A DNA stretch of 64,000 nt, taken from NCBI GenBank assembly GCA_019359505.1, contig JAHHHD010000008.1, positions 1 to 64,000 on the forward strand. The letters are read 5' to 3'. The notes below the pieces were generated by a model. It ran no database searches. It had not been told where the DNA came from and saw only the letters and a program-made list of their open reading frames with translations. This document shows positions 8,345-57,519 of this stretch, one piece after another (position 1 is the first letter of the stretch; the number at the start of each line of letters is the position of its first letter). A program made the translations under genes and the position numbers. The DNA is from Drouetiella hepatica Uher 2000/2452 (lineage in GTDB: Bacteria; Cyanobacteriota; Cyanobacteriia; Elainellales; Elainellaceae).

Positions 8345-8477
8345 CCCACCCTTAACCCAGCGCAAAGCGCTGTAAATATTACTCTAAATACTACTATTTA
8401 GCTGTGAATCTAGGCTCAGAGAACTGTTCCTCAACAATGGGTACTCTAAGAGCAGAGAATCGGGTTGTCAATTGAGT

Positions 8478-10241
8478 ATGGGTCAAAACAGCTGGCAGAG
8501 GCGGCGACGATCGCTCAAGCAAACCTTGCGGCAGGAGTGGCAAAGTCTGGCGATCGCACCCACCGTGGCACTGCTAATCATCGGACTTAATGGGTTAGGC
8601 TTTCTGCAAGGGTCAGAATGGGCAGTCGTTGACCAGTTTTTTCGCTGGCGATCGTTTCCGCCTCTAGACGATCGCATTGTTGTGATCACAGTCGATGATC
8701 AGGACAATACCCAGATTGGTCATTGGCCGATTCCAGACGAAGTCTTAGCAGAGGCGCTCCTCAAAATTGAGGCACAGCGTCCTAGATTTGTAGGTCTAGA
8801 TCTCTACCGAGACTTATCCGTTGGCTCTGGGCAGGATCGCCTAGAATCTGTATTCAAATCAAACCCAAATTTAATTGGAATTGAAAAGCGATTTGGGGGA
8901 CAGCAAGTTCCTCCGCCCAAAGCTTTAGCACAACTAAACCAAACAGGCATCGCTGACCTCATTGAAGATGCTGACGGCACAGTGCGTCGAGGATTAATTT
9001 CTGCTAGGGATGATCAAACGGGGCAAGTCTACCTCAGCTTGAGTGCTGTCATAGCGCTTAAGTATTTAGAAAGCGAAGGGATACAGTTGGAACCCATAGA
9101 GGGTACATCTCAGCTCAAGCTAGGTCGTGCTCACTTTTCTGCATTCAGCGGTAACGATGGAGCCTACGTAAACGCAGATGACAGTGGCTATCAAATTTTA
9201 ATGAACTGGCAAAACCTGCCCTCACAGTTTCGCACCCTCTCTATGACGACCGTACTGAAGGGAGAAATTCCGCCCAACCTTTTGCGCGATCGCATCGTCT
9301 TAATTGGCTCTACCACCGAAAGTACCCATGATTTTTTTTGGACTCCCTACACGACCAGCCGCATCAACAAACTTAATCGGATGCCGGGCGTTTTTATCCA
9401 CGCAAACTTAATCAGTCAAATTCTTAGAGCCGCGCTTGACGGTCAACCTTTTATCCAGGTTATGCCAGATTGGGTAGAGCAGACCTGGATTCTACTTTGG
9501 TCATTCATCGGGTGGCAAGTGAGCCGATATGGGCTGCAAACCAACGGATTCACTCAATGGCTGTTTTACGGCAAAACCATTCTGTTAACCCTGGGAGTTG
9601 GGGGCGGACTGGTGTTCATCAGCTATCTGCTGTTTCTAGGAAGTCTGTGGATTCCAATAGCTGCCCCCCTGTTGGGTTTAACCTTCTCAGCATTGGTCAG
9701 TATTGGTTTGCATAATCAAAAACTTCAGCATCTTGCCTACATCGACAGCCTGACTCAGGTTGCCAACCGCCGCTACTTTGATCAATTTCTCGCAGAGCGA
9801 TCGCATACTGTCGGAGATTTATCCGTCATCTTGTGCGATATTGACTGCTTCAAAACCTATAACGATACCTACGGGCATCAGGCTGGAGACGACTGCCTCC
9901 AACAAGTTGCTACGGCTCTACGGCAAGCAGTCCGCAAATCTGATCTGGTCTGCCGCTACGGCGGAGAAGAATTTGCAATCATCCTGCCTTACACCGATCT
10001 CACCCTAGCAGCGCAGGTTGCAGAGCGAGTCCTGAGCAAAGTCCGATCGCTCAACATGGTTCACATCAACTCGCTTGCTCAGCCCTACGTGACATTAAGC
10101 TGTGGCATTGCCTGGGTTGCCATTAGCAAACAGCATCTACAGAGTCCCGATTGGTCGCCTGTGAGCCTACTGGCAGAAGCCGATGCAGCGCTGTATCAAG
10201 CCAAAACCAGTGGACGCGATCGATATGTCATTCGCTGTTAG
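8478..10241 (+). CDS. CHASE2-GGDEF diguanylate cyclase
   Basis: Membrane sensor of about 587 residues predicted to make cyclic di-GMP. A short basic N-terminus and one membrane helix (about 25-45) lead to an extracytoplasmic CHASE2 domain (about 50-310, with DDRIVVITVDDQD and PRFVGLDLYRD), then about three membrane helices (about 330-415) and a C-terminal GGDEF domain. The active site reads GGEEF (about 495-499), the substrate region is intact (CDIDCFKTYNDTYGHQAGD), and RKSD five residues before GGEEF fits an inhibitory I-site (RxxD). No EAL domain is present. A TTG six bases upstream could be used, but the ATG at 8478 is the simpler start. The stop codon lies in a 13-base direct repeat that flanks palindrome P2. 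Confidence 0.93.
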   Translation: MGQNSWQRRRRSLKQTLRQEWQSLAIAPTVALLIIGLNGLGFLQGSEWAVVDQFFRWRSFPPLDDRIVVITVDDQDNTQIGHWPIPDEVLAEALLKIEAQRPRFVGLDLYRDLSVGSGQDRLESVFKSNPNLIGIEKRFGGQQVPPPKALAQLNQTGIADLIEDADGTVRRGLISARDDQTGQVYLSLSAVIALKYLESEGIQLEPIEGTSQLKLGRAHFSAFSGNDGAYVNADDSGYQILMNWQNLPSQFRTLSMTTVLKGEIPPNLLRDRIVLIGSTTESTHDFFWTPYTTSRINKLNRMPGVFIHANLISQILRAALDGQPFIQVMPDWVEQTWILLWSFIGWQVSRYGLQTNGFTQWLFYGKTILLTLGVGGGLVFISYLLFLGSLWIPIAAPLLGLTFSALVSIGLHNQKLQHLAYIDSLTQVANRRYFDQFLAERSHTVGDLSVILCDIDCFKTYNDTYGHQAGDDCLQQVATALRQAVRKSDLVCRYGGEEFAIILPYTDLTLAAQVAERVLSKVRSLNMVHINSLAQPYVTLSCGIAWVAISKQHLQSPDWSPVSLLAEADAALYQAKTSGRDRYVIRC

Positions 10242-10331
10242 GCACTGCTTAATCGGGGGATAAATTTTTTGAGAGAGGGGTGCCCCTCTCTCAAAAAATT
10301 TATCCCCACAATCAGCAACATTCGCTGTTAG
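10229..10331. repeat. Palindromic element P2 flanked by 13-base direct repeats
   Basis: CATTCGCTGTTAG occurs exactly at 10229-10241 and 10319-10331. Between them is a perfect 25-base palindrome (10256-10280 with 10283-10307, loop TG) of the T6-GAGAG type. The left copy contains the stop codon of the cyclase gene and the right copy contains the stop codon of the convergent methyltransferase gene. This is the pattern expected if a 90-base element inserted into overlapping gene ends and duplicated its target. Confidence 0.85.
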
Positions 10332-11290
10332 TCTTTAATCGAATTGCGCTCCCAGAAGACGCCTTCGGCATAGCCTTGAATTGTTTTATTCTGATCAGCG
10401 ATCGCCAATCTCTTTTCTGCCATACAGCCATACAGCGGGTCAAGTTCGACTCCAACATAATTTCGTCCCGTTTTCTTCGCCACCACGGAGGTCGTTCCTG
10501 ATCCCAAAAATGGATCAAAAACCCAGTCATTCAGATTGGAGCTAGCAAGGATAATTTTGGCTAAGAGCTTCTCAGGCTTTTGTGTCGGATGATCGGTGTT
10601 TTCGGGCATCGACCAGAAAGGAATTGAAAGGTCAGTCCAAAGATTAGAAGGATGGGTGAGGCGATAGTTGCCGTTCTCAGTCTTCTCCCAATCTTTAGGA
10701 CTGCCCGTAGCATCCGTGTAAGGCGCGATCACTTTTCGCCTCAGCTTCACCGCCTCTAGATTAAAGGTGTACTGCTCTGAAACCGTACAAAACCAGATTT
10801 GCTCAGAGCAATTTTTCCAGTTTGCCTTAGCGCCTCTGCCCTTCTCCCGCTCCCAGGTGATGCAGTTGCGAATCGTCAGGTATTGCTCCGCCACAAGCTG
10901 AATTGCCGCAGACGATCGCCAGTCGCCGCAGATATAGACCGAAGCCGTAGGCTTGAGAATTCTCAGCAACTTCGGCAACCAGGATTCTAGCCAGGTTTGG
11001 TACGCTGCTAGCGATCGCTCCCGAAAACGCTCTGTGCCAAAAGATTTGGTTAGGTTATAGGGCGGATCAATGAACAGCAAATCGACAAATTGGGTAGGCA
11101 GCCAGTCAAGAATTTTAAACAAATCTTGGCTGATGGTTTTATTTTGCAGATCAGGGGGGGCGATCGCGCCTTCTAGCTTCAAGAGCCGCTGAGTGTAGCG
11201 CTGTATTTCTTCTGTGGATAACGTCAATGTCCGGTTTCGAGGCGCTCTGAGCTTTTCATTTGGCTTAGCATCTGGCTTTTCATCAGTCAT
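10328..11290 (-). CDS. DNA methyltransferase (N4-cytosine/N6-adenine, beta-type motif order)
   Basis: A 320-residue enzyme that transfers a methyl group from S-adenosylmethionine to an exocyclic amino group in DNA. The catalytic motif DPPYNL (75-80) precedes the AdoMet motif DPFLGSGTT (259-267), the motif order of beta-class enzymes, with the usual HPTQKPEKLL block (234-243) just before it. The target recognition region would be about 130-225. No restriction endonuclease is adjacent, so it looks solitary, as with several cyanobacterial methyltransferases; specificity cannot be read from sequence. The gene overlaps the small upstream gene by four bases (ATGA), so the two are co-translated. The promoter region holds two operator-like repeats facing a Cro/C-like regulator. 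Confidence 0.9.
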   Translation of the reverse strand: MTDEKPDAKPNEKLRAPRNRTLTLSTEEIQRYTQRLLKLEGAIAPPDLQNKTISQDLFKILDWLPTQFVDLLFIDPPYNLTKSFGTERFRERSLAAYQTWLESWLPKLLRILKPTASVYICGDWRSSAAIQLVAEQYLTIRNCITWEREKGRGAKANWKNCSEQIWFCTVSEQYTFNLEAVKLRRKVIAPYTDATGSPKDWEKTENGNYRLTHPSNLWTDLSIPFWSMPENTDHPTQKPEKLLAKIILASSNLNDWVFDPFLGSGTTSVVAKKTGRNYVGVELDPLYGCMAEKRLAIADQNKTIQGYAEGVFWERNSIKD

Positions 11291-21585: not shown

Positions 21586-21672
21586 GTTTAAACAAAGTGG
21601 CTACGGCCATATTTTTTGAGAGCTGTGCGAAGCGCAGCTCTCAAAAAATATCTGCCTTACAACCCGTTTAAA
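21586..21672. repeat. Palindromic element P3 flanked by 7-base direct repeats
   Basis: GTTTAAA at 21586-21592 and 21666-21672 flanks a palindrome with perfect 17-base arms (21609-21625 and 21635-21651) of the T6-GAGAG type. The direct repeats are consistent with a target duplication by a ~73-base element. Confidence 0.7.
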
Positions 21673-27043: not shown

Positions 27044-27185
27044 ATCTTCAGTAGATCGCAAAGTCTTAATATTTTCCCTAAAAGCTGGATTTCAAAGGCG
27101 CTCCGCGCCTTTGAAATCCAGCTTTTAGGGTTTTGTGGCGCGCTCCGCGCGCCACAAAACCTTAATTTGCGATCTACTGATCTTC
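27044..27185. repeat. Nested palindromic element P4 (MITE-like)
   Basis: Outer inverted repeats CAGTAGATCGCAA (from 27049) and TTGCGATCTACTG (to 27179) enclose two further perfect palindromes: 26-base arms with loop TCC (27076-27130) and 15-base arms with loop TCC (27129-27161). The direct repeat ATCTTC flanks the whole (27044-27049 and 27180-27185). This architecture (terminal inverted repeats, short direct flanks, no gene) is that of a miniature inverted-repeat element of about 130 bases. Confidence 0.75.
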
Positions 27186-30572: not shown

Positions 30573-30678
30573 CCTTCAGCAGGTGATGTTCTAGACATGT
30601 TGTTGATTTTTTTGAAAGGGGCGCTCCGCGCCCCTTTCAAAAAATCAACAACACATTTGAAACACTACCCTTCAGCAG
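30573..30678. repeat. Palindromic element P5 flanked by 10-base direct repeats
   Basis: CCTTCAGCAG occurs at 30573-30582 and 30669-30678. Between them is a long palindrome (30598-30624 with 30628-30653; loop TCC; one extra T on the left arm) of the T6-GAAAG type. Its borders (GATGTTCTAGAC on the left, TTGAAACACTAC on the right) recur around palindrome P12 near 57.4 kb, so the two are copies of one element with different central stems. Confidence 0.8.
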
Positions 30679-37837: not shown

Positions 37838-37959
37838 GGTTGTGGTTTCTCCTTGCTGTCTTCGACAGAAATCATAGATTGCAAAGGATTTGAAGATTCA
37901 AATCTAGAAGATGCAGAGCTAATGGATGTTCCTCATGGCAGGGCTGAATCTGGAGGTGA

Positions 37960-37999
37960 TTTTTTTGAAAGGGATACAGAGCGCCCCCTTCAAAAAAAA
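37960..37999. repeat. Imperfect intergenic palindrome P6
   Basis: TTTTTTTGAAAGGG (from 37960) faces CCCCTTCAAAAAAAA with a one-base bulge; the loop contains ACAGAGCGC, the core shared with P1, P9 and P10. The ~520-base gap between the amidase gene and the channel gene (37838-38360) contains this, palindrome P7 and no recognisable gene. Confidence 0.7.
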
Positions 38000-38246
38000 C
38001 TATCCATAAAACCAGCAACGCCTTCCTCATCGGCTCTAAACCCCAACCTCATACAGCATTTGTTCCAGAATTAACCAGACTTGTCATCCTATCAGAAAGA
38101 GGTGAGTAGTTCTTATTCTGAGAATGGTTTTCATCATAAAAATAAGGAACCTGCAGTCTGCCGATTATTAATTAAACGGCAAATAATTAATGGAGCTTAA
38201 TTCTGCTTTTTCGCCAAAAAATTAGCCAAAAACCAGCTCAGATGTT

Positions 38247-50864: not shown

Positions 50865-50895
50865 GACGTTGTGGTATTGCTCGATCGGGGGATGA

Positions 50896-50938
50896 TTTTT
50901 GTATGAGAGGGGTACAGAGCGCCCCTCTCATACAAAAA
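50896..50938. repeat. Intergenic palindrome P9
   Basis: Perfect 17-base arms (50896-50912 and 50922-50938), loop TACAGAGCG. The text just left of it (ATCGGGGGATGA) matches the left border of P2 (ATCGGGGGATAA). A transposase remnant begins 38 bases to the right. Confidence 0.8.
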
Positions 50939-50975
50939 GTTTTCTCATGCCAATTTAACCAGTATCGCTGGCGAT

Positions 50976-51931: not shown

Positions 51932-52032
51932 CGTTATGCCTAAAATTACGTAATTGAGTTAGGACGAGTTATTTGAGAGCCGCGCAGAGCGCGGCTCTCA
52001 AATAACTCATTGGATCTAGGCGCGTAGCGTTA
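51927..52032. repeat. Palindromic element P10 flanked by 10-base direct repeats
   Basis: CGTAGCGTTA at 51927-51936 and 52023-52032 flanks a palindrome with perfect 18-base arms (51966-51983 and 51991-52008, loop GCAGAGC). The left repeat contains the ribE stop codon TAG and the right repeat ends with the complement of the Nudix gene stop (TTA, 52030-52032). Without the element the two stops would lie two bases apart. Confidence 0.87.
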
Positions 52033-57369: not shown

Positions 57370-57519
57370 AGGGAAGGGATGATGTTCTAGACCTATAGCT
57401 GTCGCTAGTTTGCTTAGGAAATTTTTGGTGGGGCGCTTCGCGCCCCACCAAAAATTTCCCTGTCCCAACCGCCTTAGCGGTTGCTATATTGTTGATTTTT
57501 TGAAACACTACCAAGGGAA
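57369..57519. repeat. Composite palindromic element P12 flanked by AAGGGAA direct repeats
   Basis: AAGGGAA at 57369-57375 and 57513-57519 flanks about 137 bases: GATGTTCTAGAC (as in P5), a perfect 20-base palindrome (57417-57436 with 57440-57459, loop TTC), one copy of the AACCGCCTTAGCGGTTGCTA repeat, and the right border TTTTTTGAAACACTAC (as in P5). The right AAGGGAA is the ribosome site of gntK. Confidence 0.85.

Follow-up and report, generated by a model that had tools for sequence, protein, structure and literature searches.

Two convergent genes of Drouetiella hepatica Uher 2000/2452 end in copies of one short repeat, and a long palindrome lies between the copies. We asked how this arrangement arose at the ends of a diguanylate cyclase gene and a DNA methyltransferase gene. 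The locus lies in the window, which is the whole 64,000-nucleotide stretch of DNA that was analysed. The two copies of CATTCGCTGTTAG were located at 10229-10241 and 10319-10331, with 90 bases from start to start. Between them, two arms of 35 nt (10246-10280/10283-10317) were 89% complementary and were separated by a 2-nt spacer, and the inner 25 nt of each arm were perfectly complementary. This was in agreement with the original prediction, which had described a 13-base repeat around a perfect 25-base palindrome. The stop of the cyclase (TAG, 10239-10241) was found in the left copy of the repeat and that of the methyltransferase (TAA, 10330-10328 on the - strand) in the right copy, as had also been claimed. 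The RNA fold of the stretch had an energy of −50.3 kcal/mol (z = −8.4), which was equalled by 0 of 200 shuffles, and the z values on the two strands were −8.4 and −9.3, far beyond the shuffles. Because of this strong fold and the membership in a dispersed family, the palindrome and the repeat are not due to chance. The features are listed in Table 1.

Table 1. Coordinates of the element, its parts and the neighbouring genes in the window.
Feature	Position	Strand	Basis or remark
CHASE2-GGDEF diguanylate cyclase gene	8472..10241	+	final base of TAG is the element's first base
Left target site duplication CGCTGTTA	10233..10240	.	8/8 match to 10323-10330
82-bp palindromic MITE (non-autonomous element) with IS1-type terminal inverted repeats	10241..10322	+	full-length match of covariance model R1; boundaries from family-wide 8-bp duplication
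Left terminal inverted repeat GGCACTGCTTAATC	10241..10254	+	pattern match, 0 mismatches
Left arm, perfect hairpin stem	10256..10280	+	perfect complement of right arm
Right arm, perfect hairpin stem	10283..10307	+	perfect complement of left arm
Right terminal inverted repeat, variant end	10309..10322	-	last three bases ATT; usual GCC
Right target site duplication CGCTGTTA	10323..10330	.	last three bases are the methyltransferase stop (TAA on -)
N6/N4 DNA methyltransferase gene	10328..11290	-	convergent with the cyclase

A dispersed family with an 8-bp target duplication

BLAST was performed with the 103 bases of the site against the host genome (6.4 Mb, 87 contigs) and gave 61 matching rows on both strands. 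The stronger non-self matches lay nearly all inside query positions 13-94, which correspond to the element and not to its flanks. A covariance model (R1) was built from 10 aligned copies, and the score of the window copy (85.7 bits) was high by construction because this copy was one of the 10 building sequences. R1 gave at least 150 scored matches on both strands of the host genome. We tabulated 91 places and excluded three partial ones (C42:3313, C40:149321 and C57:77813), and the genome may contain more copies. The tabulated copies measured 74-95 bp with a median of 87, which was too short for a transposase gene. Counting the host, 30 of 40 genomes had R1 matches at E <= 0.01, and in several of them the matches were numerous. 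The end pattern GGCRYTGCTKAWTYNRGG was found at 311 sites compared to 23 for the reversed control, and a longer end pattern at 185 sites compared to 2. A blastn search with one family copy gave no match among plasmid records, and the 4 Rfam matches over 9800-10800 were all far under the gathering scores.

Related structures were also observed elsewhere in the window. A further family copy with the exact duplication TTCCTCAT was located at 37937-38022. A weak family match at 50873-50966 (41.7 bits, duplication 3/8) was perhaps an old copy. Short near-perfect hairpins were seen at 21609-21651, 51966-52008, 57417-57459 and 27076-27165, and model matches over the second and third of these showed duplications of 3/8 and 2/8.

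The length of the target duplication was taken from the family. For each of the 91 host copies, the last k bases before the element were compared with the first k bases after it, and flanks shuffled among copies were used as the control. The mean flank identity at k = 8 was 0.607, compared to 0.275 (sd 0.016) for the shuffled flanks. The values at k = 7 and 9 were somewhat raised (0.341 and 0.352; controls 0.270 and 0.269), and those at k = 10-14 were at the control level. At k = 8, 32 of the 91 copies had at most one mismatch, and a clear duplication was absent (at most 5/8) in 42. A few copies in the host and other genomes were better fitted by a 9-bp duplication. An exact 8-bp duplication was present in 16 host copies and in 16 of 40 copies from four other genomes (7/10, 4/10, 4/12 and 1/8); these 40 were picked among the highest-scoring model matches, which favoured perfect stems. 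From 32 copies, 64 symmetrised sites were obtained, and 57 of these had A or T two bases beyond the duplication.

Only the window copy had a repeat longer than 8 bp (13 bp), and the other 15 host copies with an exact duplication stopped at 8. Because the family-wide flank identity peaked at 8 and was at background at 13, the duplication of the window copy is best read as 8 bp, and the 13-bp repeat as these 8 bp and five further matching bases. Four of the five, CATT, lie inside the right end of the element, and the fifth is the G with which the element opens (GGC). The kind of event originally predicted, insertion of an element with a target duplication, therefore stood, but its sizes, a 13-base duplication and an element of about 90 bases, were best replaced by 8 bp and 82 bp. 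The duplication might instead have been 11-13 bp, with an element that stops at ...CAGCAAC, three bases before the usual family terminus. The 13-bp repeat itself is in favour of this, and so is the end of the window copy, ...CAACATT, because the terminal ATT was found in 1 of 91 copies; the commonest right end was GCC (56/91), and GGC was the start in 54/91. IS1 duplications are mostly 8-11 bp and sometimes longer. However, the family signal at 8, the control-level identity at k = 11-13 and the 15 copies that stopped at 8 made this longer duplication unlikely.

IS1-type ends and the class of the element

Fifty stretches with PF03400 (IS1) matches, which were part of those found, were scanned for paired ends. 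In the congener G002, an element of 757 bp (L280) had the ends GGCGTTGCATAATAGAGGGATG / GGCGTTGCTGAATAGAGGGATG and the exact 8-bp duplication CACTTCGG. Its product matched PF03400 DDE_Tnp_IS1 with 89.4 bits (cut-off 24.1, E 3.2e-25). The ends of L280 were identical to the MITE consensus ends at 20/26 and 21/26 positions, and crosswise at 20/26 and 19/26. The crosswise identity was nearly equal, and therefore the pairing of IS ends with MITE ends cannot be read from the match, and neither can a correspondence between the left/right asymmetry of the MITE ends and that of L280. L292 and L293 in genome G018 had similar ends with exact 8-bp duplications. The 754-bp element L369 of Nostoc sp. C052, annotated as 'IS1 family transposase', showed the same end type and the exact duplication CAATTTAA. 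An element of Microcystis aeruginosa NIES-2481 had such ends with a duplication of only 5/8. IS1 loci with such ends and no clear duplication were also found (L260, 0/8; L268, 4/8; L294, 5/8 and 2/8; L295, 1/8). In the host assembly, no close transposase was found: there were 4 distant relatives of the L280 transposase, and the two listed were 39% (N-terminal part) and 34% identical. It is possible that a cognate IS1 copy is hidden in the assembly gaps.

Other transposase families were examined as parents and rejected. Thirteen PF01609 loci gave no convincing end pair around the transposase; one of this type (L097) had ends of the right type, but its checked pairs (101 and 693 bp) duplicated only 3/8. 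For PF13610 (IS6) and PF12762 (IS1595), 40 loci were searched for end pairs duplicated at 7/8 or better, with up to three pairs listed per locus, and none showed the matching end type. Two IS1595 loci carried the ends GGCGATTGTATACTTG and GGCTCTATAGCTGTTT. IS1595-type elements in L240 (52-2183, G002) and L242 (1416-2448, G003) had GGC-starting ends and exact 8-bp duplications, and their ends were unlike those of the family. An IS903/IS5 parent, first guessed from the ends, was dropped since the duplication was 8 bp and PF03400 loci matched.

The family showed the features of a MITE. It had 14-nt imperfect terminal inverted repeats, a target site duplication of 8 bp, at least 91 dispersed copies of 74-95 bp without a transposase gene, and ends that were similar, not identical, to those of an autonomous element (L280; L292, L293 and L369 were of the same type). 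The DDE domain of the IS1 family was present in L280, which concerns the parent elements only. The window element, at 82 bp, has no room for a transposase of its own; it is a derivative and not an IS1. Because of the family, the 8-bp duplication and the ends resembling the 757-bp IS1-family element, we considered the palindrome to be a MITE that has IS1-type ends around a single long hairpin and that was inserted by an IS1-type transposase in trans with an 8-bp duplication at the overlapping stops (probability about 0.9). In this predicted mechanism, the transposase would have recognised the MITE ends in trans, and it would probably have come from another element, now lost or not assembled.

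The element is an ordinary kind of mobile element. MITEs in cyanobacteria are already known, as described in PMC10969869. The titles and abstract openings searched, mostly open-access, held no account of this family or of IS1-derived cyanobacterial MITEs. The MITE has in common with cyanobacterial IS1-family IS (L280, 757 bp; L369, 754 bp) the ends GGCGTTGCATAAT... / GGCGTTGCTGAAT... and the 8-bp duplication, and it differs from them in being too short for a transposase gene and in its hairpin interior. The bacterial MITEs RUP, NEMIS/Correia, ERIC and Nezha are likewise small, non-autonomous, present in many copies and mostly intergenic (excerpts of PMC10969869 and PMC3733652). In contrast to them, the present family has IS1-type ends and an 8-bp duplication, a distinction drawn from the descriptions in these excerpts and not from sequence.

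Two other origins of the palindrome were weighed. It could be a resident terminator that ends transcription of the convergent genes in both directions, with the repeat incidental; its position between convergent stops and its very stable fold on both strands would be consistent with this. However, no terminator-like site was found in 10100-10450 (0 sites). The order of U-tract, GC stem and A-tract is the reverse of that in an intrinsic terminator, where a GC stem is followed by a U-tract, and this U-tract is missing. Of the 91 copies, 44 lay in tandem, 19 in divergent and 18 in convergent gaps, 9 inside open frames and 1 in an undecided place, with gaps of 66/19/21 (tandem/divergent/convergent) as the background under a simple open-frame rule, not annotation. 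The copies were thus spread much like the background gaps, and a preference for convergent gaps was rejected. Flanking 8-bp duplications are also not expected of a terminator, and we consider this origin very improbable. Once inserted, the hairpin could still have an effect on transcripts.

A REP/REPIN element moved by a RAYT-type transposase was even harder to reconcile with the data. The palindrome is a short extragenic one with compensatory stem changes and a similar length, as REPINs and REPs are described in PMC3116915 and PMC3733652. The terminal tag given for REP/REPIN in the excerpt of PMC3733652 is GTAG or CGTC, and this tag is missing from the present family, whose ends are GGC..GCC at the frequencies given above. 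The ends also resemble those of IS1 elements, and 8-bp duplications are present. REP/REPIN elements are not known to carry a target duplication. The duplications and the ends largely contradicted this assignment, and we give it almost no weight.

Probable insertion at overlapping stop codons

The stop codons were consistent with the insertion of the IS1-type MITE. The cyclase stop consists of TA from the duplication and G from the element, and the methyltransferase stop is the end of the right duplication. When 10201-10240 was joined to 10331-10370, the sequence ...cattcgctgttagtctttaatcg... was obtained, and the genes then overlapped by TTAG. The same overlap had been predicted from collapsing the repeat. 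The collapsed site is independent of the choice of boundary because 82 + 8 = 90. The pre-insertion junction would have been a single CGCTGTTA running into GTCTTTAATC, with the genes overlapping by TTAG. The hairpin would have entered CGCTGTTA at the point where the two convergent stops shared 4 bp, and repair of the staggered cut would have duplicated the 8 bp. The left copy and the element's first G would rebuild the cyclase TAG, and the right copy would preserve the methyltransferase TAA; therefore, the insertion would have broken neither gene. It had been proposed that the duplication gave each gene its own intact end. This was true of the methyltransferase, whose stop lies wholly inside the right copy, but the cyclase stop needs the G of the element.

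An empty site in relatives had been proposed as the check, and none was found: of 29 other methyltransferase loci, 0 had the cyclase alongside. The methyltransferase was present in 33 of 40 genomes, host included. We compared 30 methyltransferase loci (the host and 29 others) with about 1.5 kb of flank each, with L044 extending only 73 bases beyond the gene, and no family copy was found inside the 29 other loci. The best relative of the cyclase in nine genomes was 52% identical near full length, with up to 56% over the GGDEF part alone, and a scan of named genomes gave 7 distant loci matching in the GGDEF part only. In 45 copies the duplication reached 6/8 or more, and their joined flanks gave no spanning match among the loci examined.

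The methyltransferase of G002 was 92% identical, and its contig starts inside another element (L044 1-80), whose end GGCATTGCTGAATGCAAGTATGAA abuts the gene. The first G of this element completes the methyltransferase stop (TA plus G), 6 bp from the insertion point in the window. The two insertions at this gene end apparently happened independently. The G002 element differs from the one in the window but has an end of the same type; this end is also of the type seen in a second MITE family of the host, roughly 145 bp long, and the visible interior differed. Members of this 145-147-bp family were located at L202 1454-1599, L206 1349-1495 and L174 1595-1739, with the ends GGCGTTGCTGAATNNAAGTATGAA and duplications of 8/8, 8/8 and 7/8. 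A second MITE type was also seen in the window at 30582-30669, with the ends GGTGATGTTCTAGAC / GGTAGTGTTTCAAAT and the exact 8-bp duplication CTTCAGCA. Its hairpin core was close to the core of the 82-bp element's family, and one of its ends resembled that of a different IS1 lineage (GGTAGTGTTCTAGACC, L278, exact 8-bp duplication).

The position relative to gene ends, taken from the same open-frame rule, was determined for the 43 of the 91 copies that had two neighbours and a duplication of 6/8 or better. Of 38 stop ends, 14 had the element at most 8 bp away (7.2 expected under uniform placement), and of 48 start ends, 2 did (3.0 expected under uniform placement). The difference between stop and start placement gave Fisher p = 1.4e-4, for ends that are not independent. 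The copies are preferentially placed just behind stop codons, and the window copy is an example of this tendency. Selection against promoter hits could explain the placement.

Hairpin arms and apex orientation

The inner stem was 93% paired, and 15 of 29 pairs were changed on both sides (10 copies). The whole-structure covariation in these copies was 0.317, compared to 0.158 for shuffled and at most 0.098 for slid controls, with the structure drawn from the same sequences. The arm mismatch of host copies was 0.044, 0.080 and 0.129 for duplications of 8/8, 7/8 and 6/8, and 0.076 without a clear duplication. This indicated that stems partly decay after insertion, in a set where the model search itself favours paired stems.

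The commonest apices occurred either way round with respect to the asymmetric ends. GC[GGA]GC was observed 19 times and GC[TCC]GC 20 times; further pairs were AGA 6 / TCT 5, TGA 4 / TCA 3, AC[GGA]GT 4 / AC[TCC]GT 4 and two rare pairs at 1:1. Such two-orientation apices made up 69 of 109 oriented copies. The remaining 40 carried apices without a counterpart, for example GC[GGA]GT and GC[AAA]GC, and 22 of 131 copies could not be oriented. With a stricter orientation, GGA/TCC was still balanced (18/21), and AGA/TCT was 7/3. A hairpin tip at about 1:1 in two orientations is unusual. Chloroplast hairpins show similar minute inversions.

Near-identical copies of the same genome differed in little but the apex (L355/L356, L349/L350 and L366/L368, the last pair having the other end type and being poorly oriented). 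The near-identical L332/L333/L334, each with an exact duplication, showed symmetric, pair-keeping changes. Symmetric and one-sided changes in near-identical pairs were 89:42 in G020, 24:12 in G015, 6:4 in G024, 0:0 in G003 and 7:40 in the host; the pairs are not independent, and copies of other genomes were picked for high scores. A similar hairpin core was present on two IS1-type end systems in the host genome. We tentatively suggest, at somewhat less than even odds, that the hairpin may be a self-templating DNA module. A switch of template across the stem, in replication or in transposition, would copy arm onto arm and invert the apex. The palindrome would then be kept while its sequence drifts, and the orientation would be randomised to about 1:1. 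The host ratio of 7:40 speaks against a simple version of this idea. Replicative template switching is reported to leave inverted loops and multiple compensatory changes as its footprints (PMC8794818, PMC8604942). The present family shares with these reports the compensatory changes in stems, the homogenisation of arms and the inversion of loops or spacers; the excerpts of the reports concern rRNA genes and yeast coding DNA, whereas here a mobile family has an apex near 1:1.

If the hairpin is self-templating, the covariation of the arms here would not show selection on RNA structure. The family has many copies per genome that are roughly datable by the decay of the duplication, and it is a natural test set for whether compensatory hairpin changes come from RNA selection or DNA template switching. 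If the pre-insertion state was as reconstructed, the locus shows a mobile element entering a place without intergenic space, where an 8-bp duplication spanning a 4-bp stop overlap spares both genes.
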